A DNA stretch of 64,000 nucleotides from Prevotella sp. (GTDB lineage: Bacteria; Bacteroidota; Bacteroidia; Bacteroidales; Bacteroidaceae), in the NCBI GenBank assembly GCA_017428055.1, contig JAFRRN010000035.1:36222-100221 (forward strand). Reading direction: 5' to 3'. The first letter of the stretch is position 1. Each line of letters starts with the position of its first letter. Positions 24,385-51,602 of the stretch are shown piece after piece. A program made the position numbers and the translations under genes. Under the pieces are notes generated by a model that was given only the letters and a program-made list of their open reading frames with translations, did not search any database and was not told the origin of the DNA.

Positions 24385-24753
24385 ATGAATAACCACGATG
24401 TCATTTTGTTCAACTCCCGCGACGAGTTGTTTCGGATAGAGGTGTCAAAAGTCGTGTATTTTGAGGCAGACGGGAACTATACACATATCATCCTTGCCAA
24501 CAAACTGGACTTTTCTGTCTTGATGAACTTGGCGAAAATGGAGAAGGTGCTTGCCGATAACCTCCACGAGCGGGCGGGTCGGTTTATGCGCATAGGCAAG
24601 CGATTCATCGTCAACACGAACTATATCGTCCATGTACACACGCTCAAGCAACGCTTGGTGTTGTCAGACGGCATCTCCTTCGCCTATACCCTCAACATCT
24701 CGAAGGAGGCTTTGAAGAATGTGAAAAAGGTAATCGTAGGTGTAAGGATATAG
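24385..24753 (+). CDS. Stand-alone LytTR DNA-binding regulator
   Basis: 122 residues, essentially one LytTR domain: VVYFEADGNYTHIIL, the MNLAKMEKVL helix and GRFMRIGKRFIVNTNYI match the family core. There is no receiver or membrane part, so it is not itself a standard response regulator. It is the first gene of the signalling block and probably controls it. The next gene (FHA) starts 2 bp after its stop, so the two are translated from one transcript. Confidence 0.9.
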   Translation: MNNHDVILFNSRDELFRIEVSKVVYFEADGNYTHIILANKLDFSVLMNLAKMEKVLADNLHERAGRFMRIGKRFIVNTNYIVHVHTLKQRLVLSDGISFAYTLNISKEALKNVKKVIVGVRI

Positions 24754-24755
24754 CA

Positions 24756-25442
24756 ATGATGGAGATAATATTCGGTAGGGAGGAGAAGACCTCGCAGCTA
24801 CAAGCCAAGGTAAACAACCTGTCGTTCACCTTCGGCGACAACGGCAGCGTGCCCAAGACCGTGAGCAGGCAGCATTGCAAGGTAACTGTTCTTGGCGAAG
24901 GGGCGTTTATGTTGCAGAACCTCAAGATGGAAAACGACACTTTTGTCAATGGCATGGGCATCCAGACCAAGCAGGTGACGCAACAGGATGTCATCGAACT
25001 GGGCAGTTCCCATTACAAGTTGCGCTGGGATTATGTACAGGCGGTGCTGTCGAAGACGGTGAATGTGTCGCACTTGGAGCAAATCTGGAACGACTACCAG
25101 GACAAGAAATTACAGCAGCAGATAGCCGAGCGAAAGTTCAACACGCTGAAAGGGGCGACGGGACTGATTACGATGATAGCCATTGCGATGAACTTGATTT
25201 TGGGAAACAACACCATGTACATCGTCCTTTATGCCGTTGCCATCCTCCTGTCGTTGGGGTTCACCATCAAAGCATATATCGCCGCGTCGAAGTTGCCCAA
25301 CGAGATGAAGGTGTTGACCGAGAAGTTCCAGAAGGACTATTCATGTCCCAAGTGCAACCATTACCTCGGTGCGCAGTCATACGAGTTGCTCAAGCAAAAC
25401 AAGGCTTGCCCCTATTGCAAGGTGAATTTCGACTTCGGCTGA
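24756..25442 (+). CDS. FHA-domain membrane protein with C-terminal zinc ribbon
   Basis: 228 residues. FHA domain at 1-95, with VSRQHCKV (conserved Ser and His of the phosphothreonine-binding loop) and ENDTFVNGMGI; then two hydrophobic helices (about 128-165: LITMIAIAMNLILGN and IVLYAVAILLSLGF) and a four-cysteine ribbon (CPKC...CPYC, about 203-223). It should recognise a phosphothreonine partner at the inner membrane, plausibly made by the kinase encoded 4 kb downstream. Confidence 0.85.
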   Translation: MMEIIFGREEKTSQLQAKVNNLSFTFGDNGSVPKTVSRQHCKVTVLGEGAFMLQNLKMENDTFVNGMGIQTKQVTQQDVIELGSSHYKLRWDYVQAVLSKTVNVSHLEQIWNDYQDKKLQQQIAERKFNTLKGATGLITMIAIAMNLILGNNTMYIVLYAVAILLSLGFTIKAYIAASKLPNEMKVLTEKFQKDYSCPKCNHYLGAQSYELLKQNKACPYCKVNFDFG

Positions 25443-25465
25443 TGAATTTCATACATTAATCCCTA

Positions 25466-25482
25466 TATTTCGTGTATTATGT
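25466..25482 (+). promoter_or_regulatory. Conserved motif upstream of acidic membrane protein A
   Basis: TATTTCGTGTATTATGT; the same 17-mer with one change occurs at 36995-37011 upstream of the paralogous gene. Distances to the start codons are 81 and 70 bp. Confidence 0.5.
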
Positions 25483-25516
25483 CTTGCCAGAAGGTCATTA
25501 TTGGATAGAAAAAGGC

Positions 25517-25524
25517 TATTTTTG
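25517..25524 (+). promoter_or_regulatory. -7 promoter element before acidic protein A
   Basis: TATTTTTG fits TAnnTTTG, 39 bp before the ATG, suggesting a second transcript starts here. Confidence 0.5.
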
Positions 25525-25563
25525 CGGCAGGATTTAGAATGTATCAATAATCTATTCATTGTC

Positions 25564-26340
25564 ATGGAAAAGAAAAAAGAAAGTACAATATGGAAGCCCA
25601 TGTCTATCGGTGGCACCTCTGCCATCGTGTTTGTGATGGGGTCTTCCTTGATGGGTGTCGGGGGAAACACGGCGTCGAGCGGGGTGACAGTACAGCCAAC
25701 GCCAGAAGATGAGGAGTCTTTCAGGCAGGCTTTTACGGAGGCTCGTTTGCAAAAAGGCCCCCGTGCCTCGTTTGAATGGCACGGCAACCAATACAGCACC
25801 GCCACCCATGAGGAGTGGGAGAGCCTTTCCGAAGCCCAGCGAGAGGAAATCGTGACGCACGTGGATGTGTCTGCCCCCACAGACGTGGCAGTGGCAACTG
25901 ATGCCGTGGAGGTCGTCGAGTCCCCCCAGGTGGTTGATGTCACAGGGGATTTGGACGTGTCGGTGATGGACGAGGATGTTGCCGGGGCAGAGGTGTCTGT
26001 GCTTGACGAATCTTCGGATGACGACTCGCAATTGCTTGTCGAAGCCGTGGAGGAGGATGACTTCGGCGATGACGACGTGCGGATGATAGGCTTTGACGTT
26101 CCTTTGGACGATGATTCGTATGTCGCCTTGGGCGATGGCAACCAAGATGTTTATGTTGTCAACCTCGATGACGAGGCGGGTTTGGGGGAGGATGAAGAGC
26201 CTTCAGCCGATGCCATCGAGGCAGATGTGGACATTTCCATCGACCAGCAGATAGACCTTTCCAAGGAGATTGACTTTGAGGAGCCACAACCGGAGGAGGA
26301 TGGCTTGATGGGAGAGGGCGTTGACTCTTATTTTGCATGA
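25564..26340 (+). CDS. Acidic membrane protein of unknown function (paralogue A)
   Basis: 258 residues from the ATG at 25564 (MEKKKESTIWKP); an upstream TTG extension overlaps the promoter and is discarded. A short cytoplasmic head is followed by WKPMSIGGTSAIVFVMGSSL, a glycine-rich membrane-like segment (about 11-35). Next comes SFRQAFTEARLQKGP with FEWHGNQYSTATHEEWESL (about 55-95), and then a very acidic tail of about 160 residues dominated by Asp, Glu and Val. The gene at 37082 encodes the same arrangement. I recognise the F-x-W-x-G-x-x-Y-x-T...EEW pattern as recurring in Bacteroidales proteins of unknown function. Context suggests a structural or partner protein for the FHA/kinase block. 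Confidence 0.7.
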   Translation: MEKKKESTIWKPMSIGGTSAIVFVMGSSLMGVGGNTASSGVTVQPTPEDEESFRQAFTEARLQKGPRASFEWHGNQYSTATHEEWESLSEAQREEIVTHVDVSAPTDVAVATDAVEVVESPQVVDVTGDLDVSVMDEDVAGAEVSVLDESSDDDSQLLVEAVEEDDFGDDDVRMIGFDVPLDDDSYVALGDGNQDVYVVNLDDEAGLGEDEEPSADAIEADVDISIDQQIDLSKEIDFEEPQPEEDGLMGEGVDSYFA

Positions 26341-26355
26341 TAAAAAAAGAAGCGT

Positions 26356-27108
26356 ATGTTTATGACGAAGAATATATTGGTAGGCATTGCCTTTGTCCTT
26401 CTTCCCTTGGGAGCATCGGCACAGAAAATCCTTACCGGGCCTAAGATGAAAATCAACAAAGAGAACCCTGTGCAGAAACCTACAACACCTACTCGCGGCA
26501 CAACCACAAAGAAGACGGGTGGAGGAAGCAAAGGCACCACTCGTAGGGCCTCGACAGTAGACTATACACGGTTTAACGACGGGCTGGTAAGGGCGGCAGA
26601 GAACGGTGATGTCAAGGCTTGCCATTGTTTAGGGCATCTCTACGACGAGGAATATGGCTATAATGGCGTGTTGCACGACAATGACGCGGCGACGAAATGG
26701 TATGCCGTGGCGGCAGACGGGGGCGACTATTGTGCGCAGATAGACCTCGTTTTCCATTGCTTAGACTGGCCTCAGACCACCAAGGCTCTCGACTATGTGA
26801 GCAAGTATGCGTCGATGGGCAACGTGTGTATGCAGAACACGCTGGGACGGTATTACTTGAAGAAGAACGACTTGAAACAAGCCTTCCATTGGTTCCAGAC
26901 GGCTGCCAATAACAAGAATGCGTATGACGATGCCTACAATGACAACGGCATCGGCCCGTTGGTGGAGTCGTGGTACCAACTTGGCAAGTGCTATAGTGAG
27001 GGAAAAGGCGTGGAACGTGATGATGCCGAGGGAAGGCGATGGTTGCAGAAGGCCGCCGACTCCGGCTCCATGTCCGCCAAGAAATACTTGAACCAATTGA
27101 GCAAATGA
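26356..27108 (+). CDS. Secreted Sel1-repeat protein
   Basis: 250 residues. Signal peptide to about residue 23 (ending GASAQ), a Thr/Lys/Pro-rich linker (45-70), then Sel1-type repeats such as NGDVKACHCLGHLYDEEYG and WYQLGKCYSEGKGVERDD with WLQKAADSGSMSAKKYL at the end. Sel1 repeats mediate protein-protein contacts. Located 15 bp after the acidic protein and 1 bp before a zinc-ribbon-FHA gene. Confidence 0.82.
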   Translation: MFMTKNILVGIAFVLLPLGASAQKILTGPKMKINKENPVQKPTTPTRGTTTKKTGGGSKGTTRRASTVDYTRFNDGLVRAAENGDVKACHCLGHLYDEEYGYNGVLHDNDAATKWYAVAADGGDYCAQIDLVFHCLDWPQTTKALDYVSKYASMGNVCMQNTLGRYYLKKNDLKQAFHWFQTAANNKNAYDDAYNDNGIGPLVESWYQLGKCYSEGKGVERDDAEGRRWLQKAADSGSMSAKKYLNQLSK

Positions 27109-27109
27109 C

Positions 27110-27640
27110 ATGAATAGCGCAGTCAGGATCAAATGTCCCAAGTGCTCCGCGACGCTGGAAGTGAGAAACGCGCAGGGCGAGGGGGTGAAAAACATCCGCT
27201 GCCCTAAGTGTGGCAGTACCCTTCAGGTGAGGTTTGGTGCGAGGAAGACGGAGCAACAGTCCATTCCCCTTGATGTGAATGATGAGTTAGGGGTAGAGAC
27301 GCAATTTGGCGGAGAGGTGTTTACCCGTGCTTTCCTGGTGTGCCAGGGCATCAGGTATGAGCTTCGCGAAGGCCAGAACGTGGTGGGGAGAAGTAGCAGC
27401 AAGTCGGTTGCCGACATCCAACTGCCCACGGGCGATGTGTATATGAGCCGCTCCCATGCCAATATTCTCGTCGTCAAGACGGGGAGTGGCAGGTTGAAGT
27501 GCATTCTCTCGAATGGAAATAACAAGAACCCCATCTATATTAATGACGTGAAACTGGAGCAGTCTGACGAGGTGGTGCTGTCAGAGGGTGACGAGCTGAA
27601 GATGGGAAACACCCTCGTGACATTCACCAACCAAGAGTAG
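27110..27640 (+). CDS. Zinc-ribbon plus FHA-domain protein
   Basis: 176 residues. Residues 5-45 form a CxxC...CxxC ribbon (KCPKCSATLEV and IRCPKCGSTLQVRF) of the MJ0042 type; residues 78-175 form an FHA domain (NVVGRSSSKSVADIQLP, MSRSHANILV, with the Arg and Ser-x-x-His residues that bind phosphothreonine, then NPIYINDVKL). It is cytoplasmic by absence of signal or membrane segments. Likely a phosphopeptide reader in the kinase/phosphatase module. Confidence 0.88.
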   Translation: MNSAVRIKCPKCSATLEVRNAQGEGVKNIRCPKCGSTLQVRFGARKTEQQSIPLDVNDELGVETQFGGEVFTRAFLVCQGIRYELREGQNVVGRSSSKSVADIQLPTGDVYMSRSHANILVVKTGSGRLKCILSNGNNKNPIYINDVKLEQSDEVVLSEGDELKMGNTLVTFTNQE

Positions 27641-27692
27641 GTTGATTGCTTATCAGGTTATTAGATTTTGAGATAAAACCCACGAACCCACG

Positions 27693-28586
27693 ATGCGATA
27701 TTCCTTTTATCAGCCATACTCCATCTACGAACAGGGAAAGCGACCCAACCAAGAGGACTCCATCTTCCCACGACATCATGAGGCAACACCAGGAAGCCGA
27801 TTGTTTGTCCTTTGCGATGGCATGGGAGGGTATGAGTGTGGAGAGTTGGCAAGCTCCACGGTTTGTGAGAGCCTGTCTTCTTTCCTGCTGTCAAAGCCCG
27901 TCTTTTCCGAGCGGCTTTTCTTGGAAGCCTTGCAATACAGTTTCCAGAAGTTGGTGGAGAAGTCGAAGGGGAAGGGCAACCGCTTGGGTACGACGTTGGC
28001 ATTTCTCGCATTCCATGAAGGTGGTTGCCTCGCCGCACATATCGGTGACAGCAGGATTTACCACATTCGTCCCAAGGATGGCAAGGTGATGTATGTCTCC
28101 CACGACCATTCTTTGGTGAACGACTTGTATGATGCGGGGGAGATTACCAAGGAGGAAATGAAAACTTCCCCGCAACGACATATCATCACACGTGCCATCA
28201 GGGGAGGCGAGAAAGGGCACCTGTCGCAGCCGGAGATGAAACATATTACCGATATTCGCCCCGGCGACTATTTCCTGCTGATGTCTGACGGTATGTTGGA
28301 ACACATGGATGACGATGACTTGCTGCGGTTGTTGGCACGTCAGGACATCGATGACGAGGGTAAGATGGAGTGGCTCAAGGATGCTACCGCCGGCAATTCG
28401 GACAACCATTCTGCCATCATGGTCCATGTGGCAGGTGTGGAAGACGGGGTGATGGATGTGTCTGTCCCTGCCCCCTTGATGCAAGATGAGGTACGGAAGG
28501 AACGAAAGAAGGTGGACTGGTGGAAAGTGTATTTCATCGCTTTGTGTGTATTGGTGGCTTTGTTATGGCTGATCATGAAAATGTAG
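27693..28586 (+). CDS. PP2C-family Ser/Thr phosphatase with C-terminal membrane anchor
   Basis: 297 residues. All PP2C metal-ligand motifs are present: RPNQEDS (about 18), VLCDGMGGYECGE (about 37), GTTLAFL, AHIGDSRIYHI (about 117), LLMSDGMLEHM (about 195) and DNHSAIMV (about 238). A hydrophobic helix closes the protein (VYFIALCVLVALLWLIM, about 279-296), placing the catalytic domain in the cytoplasm at the membrane. It should reverse the phosphorylation made by the kinase encoded 58 bp downstream. Confidence 0.93.
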   Translation: MRYSFYQPYSIYEQGKRPNQEDSIFPRHHEATPGSRLFVLCDGMGGYECGELASSTVCESLSSFLLSKPVFSERLFLEALQYSFQKLVEKSKGKGNRLGTTLAFLAFHEGGCLAAHIGDSRIYHIRPKDGKVMYVSHDHSLVNDLYDAGEITKEEMKTSPQRHIITRAIRGGEKGHLSQPEMKHITDIRPGDYFLLMSDGMLEHMDDDDLLRLLARQDIDDEGKMEWLKDATAGNSDNHSAIMVHVAGVEDGVMDVSVPAPLMQDEVRKERKKVDWWKVYFIALCVLVALLWLIMKM

Positions 28587-28643
28587 TGTTCAATACTTTG
28601 AATACCAATTAGTTATTAATGACCATAAAGACTTGATATAAAG

Positions 28644-30149
28644 ATGGAAATGGATTTAAGGGAAAATACCAAGTTGAAGAACGACACCTACCAAGTGGTA
28701 TCGGTATTGGGGCGTGGTGGCTTTGGCATCACCTATAAAGCGATTACCCATGGTGCCGTATCGGGGAAACTTGGGGGAGTGAAGGTTGACATTCCCGTCA
28801 CGATTAAGGAGTTTTTCATGAAAGACTCATGTGTGCGGGAAGAGGAAACACAGCGTGTGTCTATCCCAACAGCCAATGGCAAGGAGCAGATTGAAAGATA
28901 CAAGAGGAAGTTTATCAAGGAAGCGTATAATCTATCCAAGCTTGACCATCCCAACATTGTGAAGGTAATAGATGTCTTTGAGGAGAACAACACCGTCTAC
29001 TATGTCATGCAATTCTTGCGCAATGGTACATTGACACAATATATCCGCGAGAATGGGAAGATGAATGAGGAGATGGCGCAAAAGTATATCCTCCAGATAG
29101 CGGATGCCTTGGACTATATGCACACCAAGATGCACATGTGCCATTTCGACGTGAAGCCCAGCAACATCCTGTTGGATGACCATTTTAATGCCAAGCTCAT
29201 CGACTTCGGCATCTCTAAGAACTATGATGAAAAGGGGAGTGCCACCAGCAGCACGCCCGTGGGAATCAGCAAGGGCTATGCCCCCCTGGAGCAGTATCGG
29301 CAGACGCTTAATGAGTTCTCGCCAGCCTCGGATGTATATAGCTTAGGTGCGACGCTCTATACGTTGTTGACGGGCAATGTGCCACCCGAGGCGAGTGAGG
29401 TGTTGGACAACGGTCTCCCCGCATGTCCCGCCGATGTGTCGCCAAGGATTTGGAACGTCGTGGAGAAAGCCATGACCCCGCGAAGGAAAGACCGTCCCCA
29501 GCGCGTCAGTGATATCGTTGCCCTGTTGCGCGAAGAGAAGGCACCTGTTATCGTGGATGACGATGTCGAGACACAATTGTTTGACGAAGAGGAGCCACAT
29601 GTCAAGGAGGAGAAATCGGTTGGCGTTCTTGGGCCTTTGTTGGGCAATCCTTTATTGAAGAAGGTTTTGGCAGGTGTCTTGTCGGCCTTGATAGTCCTCG
29701 GTGTCGTCATCCTCGCTTGGAAGGCGATGGGAACGGGGCAGGAGAGTGCGCCCCAAGTGGTCGAAAGCCCCCATGTTGATGAAGCGGAGATAGATTATAT
29801 CCTCCAAGGAGAGAATGGCAGTGAGGACATTAAGTTCCATTATAAGGGACAGGTAGTGGATGGCGTACCCGAGGGTAAAGGGATTGGCGAGTATGCCGAG
29901 GGTGTCTATGAGGGCAATTACCATGCTGGCAAGCGAGAGGATAGCCATGCCGTGATGAAGATGGCGAATGGCGATGTGTATGATGGGTCATGGGAAGATG
30001 ACCATTATGCGCAGGGTCGGTATACGATTAGTGTGAATGGGATGTATTATGAGGGTGACTACCTTCAGGGCGAACCCTACAATGGCACTTATTATAACCA
30101 AGATGGCACAGTGTATAACCATGTCAGGAATGGCAAAGAAGTGAAATGA
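28644..30149 (+). CDS. Membrane Ser/Thr protein kinase with MORN repeats
   Basis: 501 residues. Kinase domain at about 15-290: Gly loop LGRGGFGITYKA, Lys in VTIKEFFM, catalytic loop HFDVKPSNILLDD (the Arg of HRD is Phe, so a non-RD kinase), LIDFGISK and the GYAPLEQY substrate loop. A single membrane helix follows (about 340-360, GVLSALIVLGVVILAW). The extracytoplasmic part contains MORN-type repeats (about 395-495; EGVYEGNYHAGKRED, DVYDGSWEDDHYAQGRY, MYYEGDYLQGEPY). MORN repeats often bind lipid or act as an assembly surface, so this part may sense the envelope. It is one bp from the next gene. Confidence 0.92.
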   Translation: MEMDLRENTKLKNDTYQVVSVLGRGGFGITYKAITHGAVSGKLGGVKVDIPVTIKEFFMKDSCVREEETQRVSIPTANGKEQIERYKRKFIKEAYNLSKLDHPNIVKVIDVFEENNTVYYVMQFLRNGTLTQYIRENGKMNEEMAQKYILQIADALDYMHTKMHMCHFDVKPSNILLDDHFNAKLIDFGISKNYDEKGSATSSTPVGISKGYAPLEQYRQTLNEFSPASDVYSLGATLYTLLTGNVPPEASEVLDNGLPACPADVSPRIWNVVEKAMTPRRKDRPQRVSDIVALLREEKAPVIVDDDVETQLFDEEEPHVKEEKSVGVLGPLLGNPLLKKVLAGVLSALIVLGVVILAWKAMGTGQESAPQVVESPHVDEAEIDYILQGENGSEDIKFHYKGQVVDGVPEGKGIGEYAEGVYEGNYHAGKREDSHAVMKMANGDVYDGSWEDDHYAQGRYTISVNGMYYEGDYLQGEPYNGTYYNQDGTVYNHVRNGKEVK

Positions 30150-30150
30150 A

Positions 30151-30849
30151 ATGAGAGTTGTAAAAAGGTCAACCGTGAAGAGGGCGTGGCATCTGCCCAT
30201 TCTGCTTTTCTGCCTTGTCACTATCTCACCCTTGTCTATATGGGCGCAGGATGATGCCTCCGCATGGATGAAGAAAGGCAATGACTGTTACAAGGAGGGG
30301 CAATATTCCGCCGCTGTGGGTTACTACAAGAAAGCCGCAGACATGGACCATGCCGAGGCGCAGTTCTGTTTGGGCTATGCCTACTATGTGGGCGAGGGCA
30401 TCATCCGCAACATGGAGTCTGCCGCAAGGTGGTTTCAGCTGTCCGCCGCCCAAGGCTTTCCCAAGGCTCAGTACAATCTTGCCTTCTGTTATATGGAGGG
30501 GAGAGGCGTGGAGAGAGATTATGATGAGGCTCTACGGTTATTGCGGGCGGCAGCCGAGAATGGACTGCCCCAGGCGCAAGTGACCTTGGCGGAATGCTAT
30601 GCCAATGGTATCTTGGTGGAGAAGGACACGGTGGAGAGCAATCGATGGATGGAATTGTCGAGGAAAAGGGCTTCTGCCGAAGAAACGCAAGCATCCGTGG
30701 GAGAGGCTCCTAAACCGCGTGTGGTGTACGGACCGACGAAGATCAAGAAGGATACTCCTATAGAGAACGAGCAAGGCAAGGCTCCTGCGAAGAAGAAAAA
30801 ACGCAAGGAGGTGAAGCCAGAATACCAAATAGAAATCAATTTAGATTGA
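30151..30849 (+). CDS. Secreted Sel1-repeat protein with basic tail
   Basis: 232 residues. Signal segment to about residue 30 (ends SIWAQ), then four Sel1 repeats: ASAWMKKGNDCYKEGQY, AEAQFCLGYAYYVGEGI, PKAQYNLAFCYMEGRGVERD and PQAQVTLAECYANGI. The last 60 residues are Lys-rich and without a known fold. Starts 1 bp after the kinase stop, so translation is tightly coupled to it. Confidence 0.88.
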   Translation: MRVVKRSTVKRAWHLPILLFCLVTISPLSIWAQDDASAWMKKGNDCYKEGQYSAAVGYYKKAADMDHAEAQFCLGYAYYVGEGIIRNMESAARWFQLSAAQGFPKAQYNLAFCYMEGRGVERDYDEALRLLRAAAENGLPQAQVTLAECYANGILVEKDTVESNRWMELSRKRASAEETQASVGEAPKPRVVYGPTKIKKDTPIENEQGKAPAKKKKRKEVKPEYQIEINLD

Positions 30850-30852
30850 AAT

Positions 30853-31518
30853 ATGAAGAAGAAAGTGTTATTGTTGACGTATGTGTTTGCCTGGTTCCTT
30901 GTTGGTATGGCAAACGGACAGAATGCGAAAATGGATAAGGCGGAAGCTGATGAACTGCTCTACAACGAGTTGAAGACGGCTTTACCTCCCACTTCTTTCA
31001 AGGAGGAAATCGTGGGAACGGAAGACATAGTAGAGAAAACCCATGAGCGAAACGTGTTGAAGGTTGTGGGTAAGTCTTATCAAATAGAGTCGTTGAGGTC
31101 TGATTTCTATGTGACGCAAAAGGGTGGGAGATATGTCGCGCTATATGATGCGAGCCATCCAATGGAGTCATTTGTCAACCTTTTACTAAATAAGGTGAAA
31201 GACAATCGTCACCCCATCTTGATTACGCATCATCAATATGGCAACGTTATCAAGAAGCTCAAGATGCCTATGGCTAACCTGTTTAACTTGTTGGGTAGGA
31301 CCATGGAAATCTATTGTTTCGTCACATCTATCGACAAAAAGACGGTCAATGGCGTGTTGGTGTTCCACAATCCCAAGGATGACATCATCCACCTGTTTGA
31401 GGTGTCTGCCGAAACGCTGGCTGTCACCAAGGGAGATGCCGTCATCAATGCCGACTTATATAGCAATATACCACAAGACAATATTCGGTCATTATTTAAG
31501 GAAAGGAACAAGAAATGA
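30853..31518 (+). CDS. Secreted protein of unknown function
   Basis: 221 residues with a signal peptide (ends MANGQN). I do not recognise a domain. The rest looks alpha/beta and is not low in complexity. It overlaps the next gene by 4 bp (ATGA) and follows the Sel1 gene by 3 bp, so it belongs to the kinase operon. Confidence 0.7.
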   Translation: MKKKVLLLTYVFAWFLVGMANGQNAKMDKAEADELLYNELKTALPPTSFKEEIVGTEDIVEKTHERNVLKVVGKSYQIESLRSDFYVTQKGGRYVALYDASHPMESFVNLLLNKVKDNRHPILITHHQYGNVIKKLKMPMANLFNLLGRTMEIYCFVTSIDKKTVNGVLVFHNPKDDIIHLFEVSAETLAVTKGDAVINADLYSNIPQDNIRSLFKERNKK

Positions 31519-32522
31519 AAAAAATTACCACTCTACTATTTATTAGCCTTGCCCCCATATTGGTTTTGGCTCTACTCCCCACAACGATTATGCGGGCTGG
31601 CGGGGTGTTCAAAATCATTGAAGGCATGAAAGACCCAACAGTGAAGATGACAATGGAAGCCAATGTCAATACCATGTTGGATGCGTTGGAGTCAGCGGCT
31701 CAGAGCCATTCCAAGTCATTGAAATTGTCGAGAGACCAATTTGAAAAGGGCGCCATCAATGACTTAAACGAGATATGGAGCACCAGTGAGATGACTTGTC
31801 CCTCTTCCATGTTGGCCTGCCGATGCCTGAAGACCACCACGGGATGGCAGGTGAGGGGAATTCCCATGGACTTTGTCGAGGCTGACCCTAACGAGAAGCG
31901 GCAGGAAATCTCCATCGACTTCCTTCCGGATGGCAAGATTGCCAACGTCTCGGTGGCGATGGAACTCCATCGATATGATGAGATCATGGCGCAGGCTGAT
32001 GATGATGACCTCGACTATGCTCATCGGCAAATCATTGTGGACTTTGTGGAGAATTTCCGAACGGCATATAACCGCAAGGATTTGAAGATGCTTAGGAGCG
32101 TCTTTGGCGAGAAGGCGTTGATTATCACGGGGCGTGTCGTATCGGAAAAACCCAATACCGACATCTCTAAGATAAAATTGAATAATGACCGGGTCGTTTA
32201 TACCAAGCAGACAAAAGCCGAATATCTGGCAAACCTGGAACGGGTATTCAAAATCACCAAATATATTAATGTGACGTTCAAGGATATTGATGTGGTGAGA
32301 CACCCCAAGTACGATGACATCTATGGAGTTACCCTCAAACAGTTTTGGCACACGAATCGTTACAGTGACGAGGGGTATCTGTTCTTGCTCATCGATTTCA
32401 GGGACAAGGACCACCCGCAAATCCAAGTGCGTACCTGGCAACCCTACAAAGATAAGCAAGGAAACATTGTCACCGATGAGGAACAGGTGTTCCACCTCGG
32501 CTCTTTCCGTATCACAAGATAA
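31515..32522 (+). CDS. Secreted protein with NTF2-like C-terminal domain
   Basis: 335 residues. A hydrophobic N-terminal segment (LLFISLAPILVLALLP) should direct export. Residues 170-330 (IVDFVENFRTAYNRKDLKML, then YLANLERVFKITKYINVTFK and EGYLFLLIDFRDKDHP) resemble NTF2/SnoaL-like domains known in Bacteroidales envelope proteins; such domains form dimers with a ligand pocket. The N-terminal 150 residues are unassigned. It precedes the heptose cassette by 26 bp. Confidence 0.65.
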   Translation: MKKITTLLFISLAPILVLALLPTTIMRAGGVFKIIEGMKDPTVKMTMEANVNTMLDALESAAQSHSKSLKLSRDQFEKGAINDLNEIWSTSEMTCPSSMLACRCLKTTTGWQVRGIPMDFVEADPNEKRQEISIDFLPDGKIANVSVAMELHRYDEIMAQADDDDLDYAHRQIIVDFVENFRTAYNRKDLKMLRSVFGEKALIITGRVVSEKPNTDISKIKLNNDRVVYTKQTKAEYLANLERVFKITKYINVTFKDIDVVRHPKYDDIYGVTLKQFWHTNRYSDEGYLFLLIDFRDKDHPQIQVRTWQPYKDKQGNIVTDEEQVFHLGSFRITR

Positions 32523-32548
32523 TAAAGTCGATAAATCAAGATGTCACT

Positions 32549-33604
32549 ATGATTATTAGAAGTAAAGCACCTCTTCGTCTTGGCTTAGCGGGCGGCGGTA
32601 GCGATGTTTCGCCGTACAGCGATATTTACGGGGGGTTAGTCCTCAATGCCACGATTAACCTCTATGCCTATTGCACCATCGAGGAAACCGATGACGGAAC
32701 CATCTATATCAACTCTATAGACACTGATACCACGGAGTCGTATGGGTTTACCCCAAAATTGCCTATAGATGGGAAGGCCATTCTCATCAAGGGAGTCTAC
32801 AACCGTATAGTGAAAGATTTTGGGGAAGTGCCATCCGCTTTCAGAATTACAACTTACAATGATGCCCCTGCCGGTTCTGGTCTTGGGACGTCTTCCACCA
32901 TGGTGGTCTGTATTTTGAAAGCTTTCGTGGAATGGATGAACTTGCCGCTCGGTGACTATGAGATAGCCCATTTGGCATACGAGATAGAGCGAAAGACCCT
33001 CGGGCTGGCAGGAGGAAAACAAGATCAGTATGCCGCAGCGTTTGGTGGTTTCAACTATATGGAATTTCTTCCCAATGACGTGGTGATTGTTAATCCCTTG
33101 AAAGTTAAACGATGGATTGTTGACGAGTTGGAAGCATCCATGTTGCTCTATTTCACTGGACGGTCGCGGAAAAGTGCTGCTATTATTTCCGAACAACAAA
33201 CTAATACTTCTGAAGGGAACAAAGAGGCGATTGAAGCCATGCACCAAATCAAGCAAAGTGCCATCGACATGAAGTTGGCAGTGTTGAAAGGCGACATAGA
33301 CAGCTTTGCCACAATCCTTCGCAGGGCCTGGGAAAATAAGAAGAAGATGGCAAGAAACATCACCAACCCACATATACAGGAAGCCATGGAGGTGGCGTTG
33401 ACAGCTGGTGCCAAGGCAGGGAAGGTGTCGGGAGCTGGTGGTGGCGGCTTTATCATCTTTGTTGTGGACCCAACGCGAAAGAGAGAAGTGGAGAAAGCAC
33501 TATCTAAACTCGATGGAATGGTGGTCTTTTTCCAGTTTACGGAAGGGGGCGCGCATGGTTGGAAAATATACCCTACGGACAAGGTAGAGACTCTCAAATA
33601 TTAA
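32549..33604 (+). CDS. hddA: D-glycero-alpha-D-manno-heptose-7-phosphate kinase (GHMP family)
   Basis: 351 residues, GHMP kinase. The N-terminus RSKAPLRLGLAGGGSDVSPY, the glycine-rich ATP loop APAGSGLGTSSTMVVC (about 108) and the end KVSGAGGGGFIIFVVD match HddA-type sugar kinases, which phosphorylate heptose 7-phosphate at C1. GmhA and a fused HddC-GmhB follow within 10 bp, so the full path from sedoheptulose 7-phosphate to an NDP-heptose (GDP-D-glycero-alpha-D-manno-heptose in characterised cases) is present. Confidence 0.88.
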   Translation: MIIRSKAPLRLGLAGGGSDVSPYSDIYGGLVLNATINLYAYCTIEETDDGTIYINSIDTDTTESYGFTPKLPIDGKAILIKGVYNRIVKDFGEVPSAFRITTYNDAPAGSGLGTSSTMVVCILKAFVEWMNLPLGDYEIAHLAYEIERKTLGLAGGKQDQYAAAFGGFNYMEFLPNDVVIVNPLKVKRWIVDELEASMLLYFTGRSRKSAAIISEQQTNTSEGNKEAIEAMHQIKQSAIDMKLAVLKGDIDSFATILRRAWENKKKMARNITNPHIQEAMEVALTAGAKAGKVSGAGGGGFIIFVVDPTRKREVEKALSKLDGMVVFFQFTEGGAHGWKIYPTDKVETLKY

Positions 33605-33611
33605 TTTAGAC

Positions 33612-34271
33612 ATGGAGAATATCCTAATACAGTTTGTCGCAAATCTGATAAATCGTTATCCCCTGCTGAAAGTATGTCAAGGGGATATATCAAGTGCCTA
33701 CGAGATCCTTGAAGAAACATTCACGAAAGGAGGAAAACTGCTGGTCTGTGGTAACGGCGGTTCGGCATCAGACTCAGAACATATCGTTGGAGAGCTTATG
33801 AAAGAATTCCGCTTGAAACGTAAGGTCTATCATGAGCAGGCGGAAAAACTGAGAGCCATCAGTAATGACCTCGGACCAGTATTGGCCAACCATCTACAAG
33901 GGGCATTGCCAGCCATCTCATTGACAGGACATTCTTCACTGACCACCGCTTTCATGAACGATTCAGAGCCAGAGCTTATTTTTGCCCAGCAAGTGAATGG
34001 CTATGGTAAACCAGATGATGTCTTCTTGGGCATATCCACTTCGGGAAACAGCAAGAATGTACTGTATGCAGCGGTGACGGCGAAATCGAAAGGCATGAAA
34101 GTGATAGGCCTTACGGGGCAGCGTGATAACCTTTTGTCTCACTATGCCGATGTGTGTATCAAGGTTCCCGAAACAGAGACATATAAGATACAGGAGTTGC
34201 ACTTGCCAGTGTATCATTGTCTGTGCATGATGCTTGAAGAACATTTTTTCGGTAATATAGTAACTGGTTAA
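33612..34271 (+). CDS. gmhA: Sedoheptulose-7-phosphate isomerase
   Basis: 219 residues, SIS fold. Motifs LLVCGNGGSASDSEHIVGEL, LGISTSGNSKNVLYAA and the final IQELHLPVYHCLCMMLE are GmhA signatures; the Glu and His of the active site are visible. It is longer than E. coli GmhA by about 25 residues, in a lysine-rich stretch near residues 70-95. It makes D-glycero-D-manno-heptose 7-phosphate for the kinase encoded just upstream. Its stop overlaps the next start by 1 bp. Confidence 0.92.
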   Translation: MENILIQFVANLINRYPLLKVCQGDISSAYEILEETFTKGGKLLVCGNGGSASDSEHIVGELMKEFRLKRKVYHEQAEKLRAISNDLGPVLANHLQGALPAISLTGHSSLTTAFMNDSEPELIFAQQVNGYGKPDDVFLGISTSGNSKNVLYAAVTAKSKGMKVIGLTGQRDNLLSHYADVCIKVPETETYKIQELHLPVYHCLCMMLEEHFFGNIVTG

Positions 34272-35587
34272 TGAGTATGAGAGTAGTGATAATGGCTGGT
34301 GGGAAAGGGAGTCGCATCGCATCGCTGAAGGCTGACGTGCCGAAACCCATGATTGAAATCTGCGGGAAGCCCATTTTAGAATATCAAATAGAAAACTTGA
34401 AGTCATGCGGGCTGACGGATATCACAATCGTCATAGGGCATCTGGGGCATGTCATACAGCAATATTTTGGCGATGGCTCTAAACATGGAGTGAGGATAAA
34501 CTATTTTGTCGAGGATGTTCCATTGGGAACAGCTGGTGCCCTTTACAAGATACCAGAGCTGACAGATGACTTCTTGTTGCTTTGTGGAGATGTGATACTA
34601 AATGTTGATTTCAATCGATTCATCCAGTTCCACAAGTCACACAATGCTTGGGCAAGTCTGATGACACATCCTAATGACCATCCCCAAGATAGTTCACTCA
34701 TAGTGACAGAAAAGCTTTTCCCAAATGGGGATGGTGGACTTCCGAGAGACACCCATCGTGTCGTTTGTTGGATGAATAAGGAGGATGAGCGGTTGTTTTA
34801 CCAAAACAGGGTCAATGCGGGCATAGAGATTATTTCTGCTAAACTATTGGAAGAGGCTAAACGGAATTACGAGCCGCGCCACCCACAAGCGCCAGAACGG
34901 ATGGACTTGGACCGTGACATCTTGAAACCCTGTGTCAAGACGGGACATATCTTCGCATACGACACCACGGAATACATCAAGGATATGGGAACGCCAGAAA
35001 GGTTCTATGAAGTGGAAAGGGATATGAAGGCTGGAATAATTAATGCTCGCAACCTGTTAAAGCACCAAAAGGCGATATTCCTTGATCGTGATGGTACGAT
35101 AAACTATCATATAGGTTTCCTGACCAATCATCAACAGTTTGAACTCATACCTGGTGTAGCCGAGGCTATTAGCCTTATCAATAAGTCTGGGTATCTTGCT
35201 ATCATAGTAACCAACCAACCCGTAATAGCTCGAGGTGAATGTACATGGGAAGAATTGCAAGTGATACATAACAAGATGGAAACGGAGCTTGGAAAGAAAG
35301 GAGCTTTCGTCGATGCCATCTATGTATGTCCTCACCATCCTGACAAGGGGTTTGCAGGAGAAAGACCAGAGTATAAATGTGATTGTGACTGTCGAAAGCC
35401 TGCGGCTGGCATGTTGAAAAAAGCCGCAGAAGACTTTAATATTGACCTGTCTGCTTCCTATATGATAGGAGATGGTCAAAGGGATATTGAGTCTGGTGAG
35501 AATGCTGGATGTCTTTTTTCTGCCAAAATACGGACAAATCAAGATTATTCATTAACAAAGATAATAGAAGAAATATTCACTAAATAA
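34271..35587 (+). CDS. Fused heptose-1-phosphate nucleotidyltransferase and bisphosphate phosphatase (HddC-GmhB)
   Basis: 438 residues in two enzyme domains. Residues 1-245 are a nucleotidyltransferase (VVIMAGGKGSRI, DVPKPMIEICGKPIL, GTAGALY, LLLCGDVI), as in HddC. Residues 265-438 are a HAD phosphatase: AIFLDRDGTIN (nucleophile DxD), IIVTNQPVIARGE, the Zn-binding CPHHPDKGF...CDCDCRKP and MIGDGQRDIESG, as in GmhB. In characterised pathways these act on steps 3 and 4: removal of the 7-phosphate, then nucleotidyl transfer. The joining of both in one chain is unusual enough to note. Nucleotide choice (GDP versus another) cannot be read from sequence. Confidence 0.9.
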   Translation: MSMRVVIMAGGKGSRIASLKADVPKPMIEICGKPILEYQIENLKSCGLTDITIVIGHLGHVIQQYFGDGSKHGVRINYFVEDVPLGTAGALYKIPELTDDFLLLCGDVILNVDFNRFIQFHKSHNAWASLMTHPNDHPQDSSLIVTEKLFPNGDGGLPRDTHRVVCWMNKEDERLFYQNRVNAGIEIISAKLLEEAKRNYEPRHPQAPERMDLDRDILKPCVKTGHIFAYDTTEYIKDMGTPERFYEVERDMKAGIINARNLLKHQKAIFLDRDGTINYHIGFLTNHQQFELIPGVAEAISLINKSGYLAIIVTNQPVIARGECTWEELQVIHNKMETELGKKGAFVDAIYVCPHHPDKGFAGERPEYKCDCDCRKPAAGMLKKAAEDFNIDLSASYMIGDGQRDIESGENAGCLFSAKIRTNQDYSLTKIIEEIFTK

Positions 35588-35600
35588 GAAAAAGGAAATT

Positions 35601-36971
35601 ATGAAAAAGCTGTTTATCCTTATGGCGTTTTTGGCACTTGCAGCGCAAGTGATGACCGCACAGAATGTGTTTGAGTTGACAGACATCTCCCAGCCCAACG
35701 ATATCTATTCTGGCGAAGAGAATGAGGGAGCTGTACTGATTCGATGCAACCACTCCATCCCTTTGAGTTTTTCATCGTCTATGGACAAGAGTGCCACGCC
35801 CTTCATGACTGACATCCAAGGTACAGACTCCTTGTATTATATCGTGTTCCCAACGGGCAAACGTTACCGTGGAAGGCAACTGACCATCTCGGCAAGAGGA
35901 TATAGGTCGGTGACGATAGACATTAACCTGGAGCCTAAACAACTTTTGTCGTACCAGATAATCGACCCTAACAGCATGGTGGATGCGGGTTGTTACAGGG
36001 GGCATCGCAATAAAGGTATTAGTGAGATGAAGAATTGCAACTACGCTGAGGCGAAGAACCAGTTTGAGCTTGCCAGTGAATGCTCTGACGTGAACAAGGA
36101 GGAGAATGAAAGGAACATTGCACTCGTGGACACCATCCTTCGCTATCGGGCACTCGCCAACAATGCATACGAGCTGTTGGACTATCGCAAGGCAAGTGCA
36201 TATTATGGGAAAGTGATAGAGTTAAACTCTTTCGACTGGTTCTCTTCTGATAGGAAGACGGAGTGTATCACGAAGTTCACGGACGACTGTAACGTCCTAT
36301 ATGAACAGGCCGAGCATTATTTAGGGGAAAAAGACTATGACAAGGCGAAGGAGCTGTACCAACGTGTCATCAACAAGGAGTGCAACAATTATACTTCTGC
36401 CGTGGCTCGTCTCACTGAAATAGAAAAATATCAGACGGCAAGAAAGAACCACAATACGGTCATCGCATACAATTTTGACCTCAGTGGCGACTGTCCCGTG
36501 GGCTTGCATATCGGTGGTTACCGTCAAAAGAAGACGGGTGGGTTCTTCCAGTTCAGTTTCAGTACGAAGAACATTGGCGACTGCATTCGTGGCGATGCCG
36601 AATACGGCGACTATCAGGAGGTGAATGTGGCATTTGGCTTCACGCATAAGATTGCGTCGCCCGTGTGGTTCTATATAACGCCTTTCGGTGGAACTGTAAA
36701 GACTTACTACGGTAATTTTGCAAAAGACACATACCCTGGCAAGGATTATCCGAATGATAAGGAAAAGGCAGCACTGGAAAATGACAAAGATGATGATACT
36801 CTCACTAAGATAAATTTCGCTTGTGCTTGGTCGCCCACGGTAGGCTTGATGGTGAAGTATAGTTATTTTGCCTTCCAACTCGGTTATCAATACCGTTTCC
36901 CCATCAAGAAAGGTTATGAAGATTTTATGGGAACGAGTCGGTTTACCATTGGTGTTGGTGTCGCATTCTAA
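35601..36971 (+). CDS. Secreted TPR protein with outer-membrane-like C-terminus, unknown function
   Basis: 456 residues. Signal peptide to about residue 20 (ends MTAQ). An N-terminal beta domain with a PEGA-like end (residues 80-115, RYRGRQLTISARGYRSVTI) is followed by TPR-like helices (about 150-280, including YAEAKNQFELASECSD and DYDKAKELYQRVI) and a C-terminal 170 residues with alternating aromatic strands ending GTSRFTIGVGVAF, typical of a terminal beta-strand of outer-membrane barrels. It follows the heptose cassette by 13 bp. A role as envelope assembly partner is inference. Confidence 0.7.
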   Translation: MKKLFILMAFLALAAQVMTAQNVFELTDISQPNDIYSGEENEGAVLIRCNHSIPLSFSSSMDKSATPFMTDIQGTDSLYYIVFPTGKRYRGRQLTISARGYRSVTIDINLEPKQLLSYQIIDPNSMVDAGCYRGHRNKGISEMKNCNYAEAKNQFELASECSDVNKEENERNIALVDTILRYRALANNAYELLDYRKASAYYGKVIELNSFDWFSSDRKTECITKFTDDCNVLYEQAEHYLGEKDYDKAKELYQRVINKECNNYTSAVARLTEIEKYQTARKNHNTVIAYNFDLSGDCPVGLHIGGYRQKKTGGFFQFSFSTKNIGDCIRGDAEYGDYQEVNVAFGFTHKIASPVWFYITPFGGTVKTYYGNFAKDTYPGKDYPNDKEKAALENDKDDDTLTKINFACAWSPTVGLMVKYSYFAFQLGYQYRFPIKKGYEDFMGTSRFTIGVGVAF

Positions 36972-36994
36972 AAAGTTTCGTGTATAAATCGGGG

Positions 36995-37011
36995 TATTTC
37001 GTGTATCATGT
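36995..37011 (+). promoter_or_regulatory. Conserved motif upstream of acidic membrane protein B
   Basis: TATTTCGTGTATCATGT, one change from the copy at 25466-25482. A shorter relative (GTTTCGTGTATAAAT) lies 20 bp upstream. No TAnnTTTG element is seen here. Confidence 0.5.
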
Positions 37012-37081
37012 GTCAAATTATTTGGTGAGTAATGAAATAATGCCGACATTTGCCATGTAATTCATTTAAATACATAAAGTT

Positions 37082-37852
37082 ATGAAAGCAAATAATGACG
37101 AGACCATGTTCCTTGATGGTTTACAGGAAGAGAGGAAAGAAGACAATGTGAAGAATGACTTAAGGTCCATGTGGAAACCTGTCACCATTGGTGGCACAAG
37201 CGCCATGATGCTGGGCATCGGGGCCTTGGCTGCCAATCAGTTGGCAGATGGTGTCCTGCAAATGGGTGATGAAAAGTCGTTTGAGGAAGCCCTGGACGAG
37301 GCACGTGCGGAGTTAGGGTCAGATGGAGTGTTCCAATACAAGGATGGCGTTTATACCACATGTTCGCCCGAGGAATGGGTGGAGATGTCCGACGAGCAGA
37401 TTGCAGACTTGATGACTAACGCGGTGTCAAACGACTTGATGGAAATCGATTTGAGTAGTGCGGTGCATCCAATGGACGACAGTTCTTCCCCCATTGTCGT
37501 TGAGGTAAATGACAATTATGGACCTATTGCCATGGAAACAGGTGGTCAGGCTGTCCAGGTTGTTCCTGAGGAAATCGACCCCTCTGACGTGGTGTTGGTT
37601 GATGATGAAGCGGTCGCAGCAGAAGAGGTGAGTGTTGTGGATAGGATTATCGACGAGATAGTTGACCTCATCTCGCCCGATTCTGTTCCCGTGGGTGATG
37701 TTGATGTCGCCACCCTTCAGGCATCTAAGGACGTAGAGGAAGTGGAAGATGTCGATGACTCCATTGAAGTCATTGACGATATGGCTAACCCCGAGGTCGC
37801 ACCCGACATGCCCGACTACATGGAAGATGCCGATATCTCGTCAATCATATAA
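37082..37852 (+). CDS. Acidic membrane protein of unknown function (paralogue B)
   Basis: 256 residues. It shares the full layout of the protein encoded at 25564: WKPVTIGGTSAMMLGIGALA (membrane-like, about 31-50), then SFEEALDEARAELGSDGVF with QYKDGVYTTCSPEEWVEMS (about 68-105), then a long Asp/Glu/Val tail. Identity is clear in the first 100 residues and vague in the tail. Its stop overlaps the caspase-like gene start by 1 bp, tying the two products together. Confidence 0.72.
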   Translation: MKANNDETMFLDGLQEERKEDNVKNDLRSMWKPVTIGGTSAMMLGIGALAANQLADGVLQMGDEKSFEEALDEARAELGSDGVFQYKDGVYTTCSPEEWVEMSDEQIADLMTNAVSNDLMEIDLSSAVHPMDDSSSPIVVEVNDNYGPIAMETGGQAVQVVPEEIDPSDVVLVDDEAVAAEEVSVVDRIIDEIVDLISPDSVPVGDVDVATLQASKDVEEVEDVDDSIEVIDDMANPEVAPDMPDYMEDADISSII

Positions 37853-38556
37853 TGATGAGAACGGTCTTCTTTGCCTGTCTGCTTCAAGTTGCGCTTTCTC
37901 TATCCGCCAAGACCTATCTTGTCGCCGTTGGAGTCTCCGACTATCCTGGCACGAACATGGATCTTAGGGTCAGTGCCAATGATGCCAAGACGTTGTCGAG
38001 GATATTTGTGAAGAATGGCCATTCCGTTGCCCGCTGCATTAGGGACAGCGCGGCAACGGAAGCCCATGTCTTCGATGTCATGAGGGAATATTTCGCCAAG
38101 GCGGATGAGGACGATGTCATCATCTTGTTTTTCAGCGGTCATGGATTTCCCGGCGGGCTGTTCCTATACGACACTCATTGCTTCTACGAGGATATTTTTG
38201 AGGTGATGAAGCAGAGCAAGGCTCGCAACAAGGTGATTTTTGCAGATGCCTGTTATTCCGGGAAAATGCGTGTGGAGGCGAAACGTGACTCCACTGTCTC
38301 AGACAATAATGTGATGTTTTTTCTCTCTTCGCGTTCGGCGGAGAAGTCATCTGAAACCATTTACAGCAATAGCCTTTTCACCCTATATTTGGAAAGGGGG
38401 CTTCGCGGTGGTGCGGATGCCAACCGTGACCGCACGATTACTGCCCGCGAACTCTATGATTTCGTACACCAGAAAGTGTCAGAGAACTCAATGGGATTGC
38501 AACACCCCGTGATGTGGGGGAAGTTTGATGGTGGGATGCCCATTATCAAGTGGTGA
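37852..38556 (+). CDS. Caspase-like (C14 family) protease with signal peptide
   Basis: 234 residues. Signal peptide about 1-19, then a p20-like caspase core: LVAVGVSDYPGTNMDLRVSANDA (about 23-45), catalytic His in ILFFSGHGFPGG (about 97) and catalytic Cys in VIFADACYSGKM (about 136). Both residues are present. The signal peptide suggests it works in the periplasm or outside the cytoplasm. It is the last gene of the block and overlaps the RlpA gene tail by 69 bp, on the opposite strand. Substrate and activation are unknown; an effector role is inference. Confidence 0.88.
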   Translation: MMRTVFFACLLQVALSLSAKTYLVAVGVSDYPGTNMDLRVSANDAKTLSRIFVKNGHSVARCIRDSAATEAHVFDVMREYFAKADEDDVIILFFSGHGFPGGLFLYDTHCFYEDIFEVMKQSKARNKVIFADACYSGKMRVEAKRDSTVSDNNVMFFLSSRSAEKSSETIYSNSLFTLYLERGLRGGADANRDRTITARELYDFVHQKVSENSMGLQHPVMWGKFDGGMPIIKW

Positions 38557-39069: not shown

Positions 39070-39084
39070 TATTCATTGTTTAAA

Positions 39085-40422: not shown

Positions 40423-40479
40423 GGTAATAATCAGTTTAATGTTTAGGTATTGAGTTTACAAATAGTTAATAAGACACTA

Positions 40480-40487
40480 CAAAAATA
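40480..40487 (-). promoter_or_regulatory. -7 promoter element of gdhA
   Basis: TATTTTTG on the minus strand, 58 bp before the gdhA ATG, fits TAnnTTTG. Confidence 0.5.
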
Positions 40488-40667
40488 GGCTTTTATGGGA
40501 TAACCGCCAAATAAAAACCGAATATTTTTACAAAACTTTAAGACAATTTGAATGTTTAACGATAACAACAATGCTCTTTCGCAAAGTCTTTTTGTATGCA
40601 AAACAAGGAAAAAACCTTGATTTCTGATACTTATCTTGCCTCAAAACGTTCAAAAGTGGCAAAAACA

Positions 40668-40699
40668 TTGGGTAAATTATACATTTTTGCTTACTTTTG
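40668..40699 (+). promoter_or_regulatory. Promoter of the lipoprotein/DUF5723 operon
   Basis: TTG (40668-40670) then 21 nt then TACTTTTG (40692-40699), matching the Bacteroidetes promoter pattern; 22 bp before the ATG. The gene-free stretch between it and gdhA is AT-rich with no other feature I can name. Confidence 0.6.
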
Positions 40700-40721
40700 C
40701 ATGGTTTTATGAGGAAGACAA

Positions 40722-51512: not shown

Positions 51513-51535
51513 TGTTGGTGGTATTGGATAAGGGC

Positions 51536-51597: not shown

Positions 51598-51602
51598 TGT
51601 TG

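Follow-up and report, generated by a model that had tools for sequence, protein, structure and literature searches.

In a 64,000-nucleotide stretch of Prevotella sp. DNA (the window; contig C21 of a host genome of 4.2 Mb in 106 contigs), a block of 16 genes at positions 24385-38556, all on the plus strand, encodes a Ser/Thr kinase, a PP2C phosphatase, two FHA proteins (FHAa and FHAb), two acidic membrane proteins and a caspase-like protease. We conclude that these genes very likely form one system, and we lean, with slightly more confidence than doubt, towards reading the block without its heptose genes (g11-g13) as one copy of a conserved Bacteroidota kinase-FHA system that gates an exported caspase. 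Among 80 loci chosen by caspase similarity alone, 76 carry at least two of five partner families and 42 carry all five. The genes central to this reading are the following:

24385..24753, plus strand: g01, LytTR DNA-binding protein without a receiver domain (PF04397, 44.9 bits), a probable local regulator
24756..25442, plus strand: g02 (FHAa), FHA domain with GR and SRQH present, membrane segment and C-terminal zinc ribbon (PF00498, 37.7 bits)
25564..26340, plus strand: g03, acidic membrane protein A, a paralogue of g15, with a short tail that lacks the threonine motif
27110..27640, plus strand: g05 (FHAb), zinc ribbon, linker and FHA domain with GR and SRSH present (PF00498, 41.2 bits)
27693..28586, plus strand: g06, PP2C phosphatase with DGMGG and GDSR present and a C-terminal hydrophobic helix (PF13672, 46.7 bits)
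28644..30149, plus strand: g07, non-RD Ser/Thr kinase (HFDVKPSN; DFG present) with a membrane helix and a MORN-like outer part (PF00069, 147.2 bits)
37082..37852, plus strand: g15, acidic membrane adaptor B, immediately 5' of the caspase gene
37852..38556, plus strand: g16, caspase-like (C14) protease with an N-terminal hydrophobic putative export signal (PF00656, 71.8 bits, cut-off 21.4)

Recurrence of the gene set around one caspase subfamily

According to the map of open reading frames (ORFs) and a Pfam scan, the genes follow the order LytTR, FHAa, acidic A, Sel1, FHAb, PP2C, kinase, Sel1, g09, g10, three heptose genes, TPR protein, acidic B and caspase. Intergenic gaps range from -4 to 118 bp, with a gap of 121 bp at g03 when its first ATG at 25564 is used. 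An earlier note, made from the sequence alone, had described fourteen same-strand genes mostly 1-60 bp apart; the common strand stands, and the gene count and the range of gaps have to be replaced by those given here. Its non-RD kinase, membrane PP2C, two zinc-ribbon FHA proteins and Sel1 proteins were borne out by Pfam matches and key residues, and the kinase, PP2C, FHA and caspase key residues are all present in the window proteins. The two acidic membrane proteins are paralogues as claimed (g03 and g15, 31% identity over 115 amino acids, E 3e-15 to 5e-15), and the terminal caspase-like protease has indeed kept its catalytic His and Cys. All named domains of the block proteins are backed by Pfam except the MORN part of the supposed MORN-kinase: the kinase is secure, while the repeats of g07 are MORN-like by eye and are not listed by Pfam at E≤0.1. 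In the kinase of a relative (L106), Pfam does call MORN (E=3e-6).

The earlier note had named caspase or acidic genes without kinase and FHA genes as the observation that would argue against one system; across the 80 loci the linkage held. These loci come from named genomes, share one FSGHG-type pattern and are the best 80 of at least 446 caspase relatives; they thus sample one caspase subfamily, and several are mutually close or cut by contig ends. FHAa, FHAb, PP2C, kinase and acidic membrane protein were treated as the five core families and labelled with profiles whose seeds came from the window and 21 earlier loci. The number of core families per locus is five in 42 cases, four in 17, three in 11, two in 6 and one in 4; the complete set is found in 34 of the 47 loci that are 17 kb or longer. 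Three of the test loci (L071, L086 and L110) also supplied profile seeds, and without them 73 of 77 retain at least two core families. The labels were found in the 80 loci as follows: caspase 78, acidic 73, PP2C 67, kinase 63, FHAb 63, FHAa 61, LytTR 50, Sel1 11, g09, g10 and g14 4 each, and heptose genes 0; the two unlabelled caspases (L125 and L147) were recovered by six-frame search. The one-system claim therefore holds for the kinase, PP2C, both FHA proteins, the acidic proteins and the caspase, fails for the heptose genes, and leaves the Sel1 proteins optional.

Two or more core families were seen around none of 18 other caspases and in none of 19 arbitrary stretches; the former were hand-picked, not drawn at random, from lower-scoring rows of an order-wide caspase profile search, and the latter lie at fixed coordinates of our own choosing. 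Two loci fetched together with the control caspases (L151 and L152) carry the block and were counted apart. The host genome contains three such loci, namely the window, a diverged one with its own caspase (L039) and L152, and its two further caspase regions (L038 and L040) hold none of the core families. Across 393 genomes of the order, the caspase profile exceeded 250 bits at 13 places, which are spread over 11 genomes and all lie inside such blocks; the next score is 213 bits, and the lower-scoring matches listed lie mostly in longer open frames. Acidic protein B matches 6 of 60 relatives' genomes, its own included and all of the same genus, and g10 matches 14 of the 60. The regions around the acidic matches have the same neighbours in four genomes (G006, G009, G018 and G027) and a shorter form in a fifth (G019). 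The loci closest in synteny carry the name Prevotella sp., and copies are found in the named isolates Bacteroides caecigallinarum, Odoribacter lunatus and Bacteroides bouchesdurhonensis. Because the core set recurs in other genomes, its grouping goes beyond chance.

Outside the order, 296 genomes yielded nine caspase places at E≤1e-40. Seven regions were fetched, of which three (L190, L191 and L192) combine core genes with the caspase, L190 having no labelled adaptor, and the other four hold the caspase alone. Among 72,556 plasmid records the only match at E≤1e-20 is NZ_CP030851.1 of Runella rosea (Cytophagales); its copy (L197, positions 1-6775) is annotated as FHA, hypothetical, FHA, PP2C and caspase, preceded by a PKD gene and a vWA gene. 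The protein annotated as hypothetical is recognised by the acidic profile (8.6e-26) and contains both the SF motif described below and a tail motif, EKTQI. Phage records gave no match at E≤1e-10. In L192 (9372-10937, minus strand), a single ORF of 521 amino acids joins a PP2C (1-255) to a caspase (273-517), the two domains being separated by a moderately hydrophobic stretch. It is the only such fusion among 123 ORFs with a caspase match in the loci collected, and a lost stop codon or an assembly error is possible; taken at face value, the fusion would link both enzymes in one molecule, with one on either side of a membrane. It supports the linkage, but because it is a single case, it left our probabilities unchanged.

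Threonine motif, acidic adaptors, caspase and kinases

A threonine motif, [DE].?T.[FYLIVM], was counted in 14 classes of protein segment and compared with shuffled sequences. It is at least threefold enriched in three of them: the adaptor N-tail (75 of 98 distinct tails; shuffled mean 16.4, maximum 26 in 300 shuffles), the kinase juxtamembrane segment (93 of 111; mean 31.0, maximum 47) and the linker between zinc ribbon and FHA domain of FHAb (49 of 70; mean 12.9, maximum 24 in 500 shuffles). The window proteins carry it at these positions:

27296..27307, plus strand: ETQF, candidate phosphothreonine motif in the g05 linker
29568..29585, plus strand: ETQLFD, candidate phosphothreonine motif in the kinase juxtamembrane segment
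37097..37111, plus strand: DETMF, candidate phosphothreonine motif in the g15 N-tail, with T8 at least 90% conserved in 40 aligned adaptors

FHA domains read phosphothreonine, and the motif is of the kind that they would read once it is phosphorylated; we consider phosphothreonine wiring likely. The test is more independent for the kinase and FHAb segments, though single examples of their motifs had been viewed beforehand. A stricter first pattern, with an acidic residue after the hydrophobic one, had matched 37 of 114 tails (shuffled fraction 0.042) and was loosened after the tails had been viewed. The other classes include the acidic outer part with 59 of 106 (shuffled 82.0), the kinase outer part with 65 of 109 (60.0, maximum 72), the PP2C linker with 19 of 63 (17.3), PP2C after its helix with 20 of 49 (13.7, maximum 22), FHAa with 39 of 79 (42.8), LytTR with 18 of 59 (20.9), the caspase with 57 of 91 (51.1, maximum 64) and two clusters of neighbouring genes with 15 of 33 (19.9) and 7 of 17 (5.4).

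The acidic gene is the direct upstream neighbour of 53 of the 80 caspase ORFs. Among 120 acidic ORFs, 91 have one hydrophobic segment and one has two. Many of the tails are basic immediately before this segment, and because of these residues the positive-inside rule suggests an N-in/C-out orientation. Beyond the membrane segment, SFxxAFxxA[RQKH] is found in 70 of 111 distinct acidic proteins, with R in 73 of its 75 occurrences. A pattern for a PDYxNDA-type C-terminal peptide, set after viewing the tails, matches 63 of 109 (shuffled 3.3, maximum 9); an earlier one matched 31 of 110. In g15 the two elements are:

37277..37378, plus strand: SFxxAxxxAR-to-EW mini-domain, its alignment columns invariant or almost so
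37811..37849, plus strand: C-terminal peptide PDYMEDADISSII

The alignment behind these statements (A7, 40 rows) consists of the window protein, those of loci L111 and L136, and others from 80 score-ranked candidates of less than 420 amino acids, leaving out near-duplicates and candidates ineligible for structure prediction. AlphaFold2 modelled the acidic protein with a predicted local distance difference test score (pLDDT) of 55.3 for the whole model and of 89-94 for a block at residues 61-110, the SF region. The model matched no solved fold at E≤0.001, and a Pfam scan of the 40 acidic proteins gave no consistent family (DUF7167 in 6 of 40, best E 0.0017).

The model of g16 has a caspase fold (pLDDT 90.4), with MALT1, GSU0716 and legumain as top solved folds, and fold and His-Cys dyad together place the protein in the C14 caspase-like class. 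It scores 75.6 bits against NF047832 (Caspase, EACC1-associated type), under the NCBIfam cut-off of 140. An N-terminal hydrophobic segment is present in 89 of 95 caspase ORFs, and SGHG is kept in 87 of 91 distinct caspases. The following elements were located in g16:

38140..38142, plus strand: catalytic His97 (SGHG), invariant in 55 aligned caspases
38251..38253, plus strand: catalytic Cys134 (DAC), invariant in the same alignment
38416..38451, plus strand: EF-hand-like loop D189-E200, a loose pattern in 89 of 91 distinct caspases, counted without a shuffled control

D44 and D132 are likewise invariant in the 55 sequences, and the alignment with metacaspase-4 has Asp at the ND and D-x-C positions. 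Asp residues at the metacaspase S1 pocket are expected to favour Arg/Lys cleavage. Because two Asp residues matching this basic-substrate pocket are invariant, g16 is predicted to cleave at Arg or Lys.

Kinase numbers vary between the 80 loci: a single labelled kinase is present in 33 and two to five in 30, and 17 loci, some of them cut by contig ends, have none. When ten kinases were scanned, FGE-sulfatase-like domains were seen in the outer parts of two, and WG repeats, MORN and DUF805 in one each; it looks as if several receptors feed one circuit. When unlabelled neighbours in up to 103 loci were clustered by BLAST and named by eye, FGE-sulfatase-like proteins were found in 28 loci, BspA-type leucine-rich-repeat (LRR) proteins in 23 and a small exported-looking protein in 19.

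Proposed circuit and competing explanations

The intact writer, eraser and reader of a Hanks kinase/PP2C/FHA circuit are encoded together in the block. We propose that receptor kinases with varied outer domains would sense something beyond the inner membrane and phosphorylate the acidic-motif threonines of the kinases themselves, of the cytosolic adaptor tails and of the FHAb linker. The two FHA proteins would read these phosphothreonine marks, and the membrane PP2C would erase them. Single-pass acidic adaptors would then relay the signal through the membrane to the caspase (exported, specific for Arg/Lys and bearing a calcium-type loop), either keeping this protease inactive or presenting its substrate until the signal arrives; such gating by the adaptor is plausible. 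The LytTR protein would tune expression, and envelope attack might in this way lead to a stress or self-damage response. Caspases are common in bacteria, and few of them have a known mode of control. Here, one caspase subfamily lies almost always beside a phosphothreonine writer, eraser and reader set and an adaptor with a putatively marked N-tail; a concrete wiring diagram results and, if it is true, kinase-to-caspase signalling across a bacterial membrane. In its boldest form, a membrane array of receptor kinases with interchangeable sensors would converge on one FHA-read phosphothreonine code and act through unnamed transmembrane acidic adaptors on the exported caspase. That this is a categorically new pathway we suggest tentatively, with less than even confidence; if so, it would be the first bacterial receptor-kinase-to-caspase circuit, assembled independently of NTPase-centred death systems.

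Several observations weigh against the proposed circuit. The motif pattern was set after the acidic tails had been viewed, and the sequences are related, so that shuffles overstate significance. The FHA-domain part of FHAb is also mildly above its shuffles (43 of 70; 29.7, maximum 41), and the LRR-like neighbour cluster equals its shuffle maximum (22 of 22; 17.5, maximum 22). In the window, g03 lacks the motif, as do 23 of 98 adaptor tails, and the FHA S..H pattern is not universal by regular expression (43 of 78 FHAa, 61 of 82 FHAb). No hydrophobic segment is present in 28 of the 120 acidic ORFs, export and topology are predicted from hydropathy, and D[AS]CxSG matches only 72 of 91 distinct caspases. 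An FHAa profile matched 44 of the 393 genomes at E≤0.001, many via the FHA domain alone; among 20 regions selected by FHAa (L051-L070), 9 have a labelled caspase and 11, several of them cut by contig ends, have none. The link is thus looser from the FHAa side than from the caspase side.

The same module could also do housekeeping, with the caspase in regulated surface-protein proteolysis and envelope homeostasis; LytTR-dependent transcription would then be the chief output, and cells would not die. Exported-looking neighbours would fit this, as would the WG repeats and FGE-sulfatase-like domains among the outer parts of the kinases and the caspase-less loci L053-L056, which retain kinase, PP2C, both FHA genes and LytTR. 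A distribution so scarce and scattered, with 11 of 393 genomes above 250 bits, does not fit, and the module genes (70-92% identical) are mostly more diverged than the downstream genes (91-99%) at L111, a pattern that conflict or allele exchange fits better. We regard housekeeping as rather unlikely, and because of the scattered occurrence and the divergence at a conserved site we prefer a response to envelope attack or stress over pure housekeeping. Scattered distribution, three copies in one genome and one on a plasmid would suit anti-phage abortive infection, with kinases that sense adsorption or infection and a caspase that they set free to kill the host cell, and so would the 30 of 80 loci with two to five kinases, whose outer domains differ in those scanned. 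PADLOC, however, matches only part profiles (kinase, PP2C, zinc-ribbon and caspase) and no system, the neighbourhoods not having been searched for integrases or known defence genes, and phage records gave no match at the threshold above; we consider this function clearly improbable.

Were the caspase instead a secreted weapon against competitors, with the acidic proteins as immunity or pro-peptide partners under kinase control, the position of the acidic gene immediately before 53 of 80 caspase ORFs would make sense, and the AR of the adaptor motif (R in 73 of 75) could be a pseudo-substrate. The 16 block proteins include no secretion-system gene product, however, and the acidic proteins look membrane-anchored and bear the tail motif, which leaves the weapon very improbable. 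The heptose cassette shows that passengers enter the block, and one might suspect a chance or weak grouping of independent genes with the caspase as a bystander. For the core this is refuted by 76 of 80 loci against 0 of 18 and 0 of 19, by the recurrence in other orders and by one PP2C-caspase fusion, and we give chance grouping next to no weight.

Like the earlier note, which knew of no system with this set of genes, we found no description of it in the literature searched, with preprints and most subscription papers outside the coverage. The type VI secretion system (T6SS) has a threonine-phosphorylation pathway composed of the kinase PpkA, the PP2C PppA and Fha. It resembles the proposed circuit in that a transmembrane kinase, a PP2C and an FHA reader control an envelope event, and PpkA (structure 5hnv) is third among solved kinases matching the window kinase (E=9e-30). 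The block differs by its two zinc-ribbon FHA proteins, acidic adaptors and caspase, and T6SS structural genes are absent from its 16 proteins, to which the search was confined. FHA proteins of the GarA/OdhI type have an N-terminal phosphothreonine motif, comparable to the acidic threonine motifs just before the FHA domain of FHAb (49 of 70); in contrast to them, FHAb has a zinc ribbon in front, and its proposed partners are membrane adaptors and kinases, not metabolic enzymes. With C14 metacaspases/orthocaspases and MALT1, g16 shares the His-Cys dyad, the fold and the Asp residues expected to favour Arg/Lys, whereas it is short, exported-looking, single-domain and tied to a kinase circuit. The TerY-P triad consists of vWA, PP2C and kinase; no vWA match was found in the 16 block proteins, and a vWA gene lies near the Runella copy. 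For the MADS (mad6) and PD-T4-6 kinases, NCBIfam MAD6 gave 113 bits against a cut-off of 460, and the PADLOC matches fall mainly on the kinase domain, partner genes not having been searched.

The kinase-kinase-phosphatase (KKP) module is an anti-phage switch in which a PP2C and Ser/Thr kinases are balanced and FHA is involved; its kinases are fused to cold-shock domains (CSD) or FHA domains, it is prophage-borne, the word caspase does not occur in the text that describes it, and the part of this description available to us has no adaptors (PMC11341870). PP2C, Ser/Thr kinase and FHA are shared with the block, but the KKP layout, a PP2C followed by two kinases, one fused to a CSD and one to FHA, is not found in the window, where the one kinase of the block has no FHA or CSD match. 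Modular conflict systems use caspases, kinases, FHA and FGE-sulfatase-like domains as modules, and an actinobacterial kinase-PP2C-vWA link is mentioned; as far as the accessible portions of these articles go, the systems are NTPase-centred, unlike the membrane kinase-FHA-caspase set of the block (PMC7159879, PMC8195603). A survey of metacaspase operons describes single N-terminal helices, maybe signal peptides, and its text does not mention FHA (PMC3501461).

Passenger and optional genes

The remaining genes of the block are:

26356..27108, plus strand: g04, Sel1-repeat protein, optional (PF08238, 59.3 bits)
30151..30849, plus strand: g08, Sel1-repeat protein, optional (PF08238, 93.4 bits)
30853..31518, plus strand: g09, optional, no Pfam match at E≤0.1
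31515..32522, plus strand: g10, optional, weakly like the Cds6 C-terminal NTF2-like domain (PF24125, 20.4 bits, below the cut-off of 27)
32549..35587, plus strand: g11-g13, heptose-nucleotide cassette (hddA, gmhA and an hddC-gmhB fusion), passenger
35601..36971, plus strand: g14, TPR protein with a C-terminal part that is barrel-like by eye, optional (PF07719, 36.7 bits)

L111 (Prevotella sp. RGIG7572) is taken to be the orthologous site on the strength of its downstream genes; its upstream side is cut by the locus end. Over window positions 24756-42539, the downstream genes are 91% (rlpA), 99% (gdhA) and 95% (a 605-amino-acid gene) identical and the module genes 70-92%, which suggests that the module at this fixed site has diverged faster than the downstream genes or undergone allele replacement. 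Neither L111 nor L136 has heptose genes, and the g10 and g14 genes adjoin in both. Third-position GC is 0.52, 0.47 and 0.43 in the cassette and 0.56-0.76 in the other block genes. Because of this lower GC and the missing heptose genes in L111 and L136, we interpret the cassette as a later insertion in the window lineage; loss in both L111 and L136 is less likely. Its absence from all 80 loci and from the orthologous site rules it out as a functional part. In the host genome, hddA has one other match, 29% identical and in a 954-codon open frame. The last gene of the cassette (34271-35587) fuses an HddC-like nucleotidyltransferase with a GmhB-like phosphatase.

As core parts, g09 and g10 were ruled out by their presence in 4 of 80 loci and their occurrence near TIR or Tubulin_2 genes. 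Relatives without the kinase circuit were seen in L044 (9018-11859), in L046 (4721-7552, Tubulin_2 nearby) and, beside TIR proteins, in L043 (9841-11975); the pair is possibly an envelope part common to several conflict systems.

Some loci show further variation. L053-L056 carry the module without a caspase (kinase, PP2C, FHAb, FHAa and LytTR) and have further genes after the kinase, and L053-L055 have a small acidic ORF between the two FHA genes. In L033 (18155-19072) and L034 (14350-15261) an extra gene, in L034 a DUF2971 gene, follows the module and may be an alternative output; the stretch read contains no caspase. A Bacteroidetes-type promoter pattern has five matches in the window, none of them before g01, and a comparison of eight proteins with PHROGs found no family below E 0.015. 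Elsewhere in the window, positions 51533-51599 on the minus strand match a FopS-family small RNA (RF04319, 60.4 bits).

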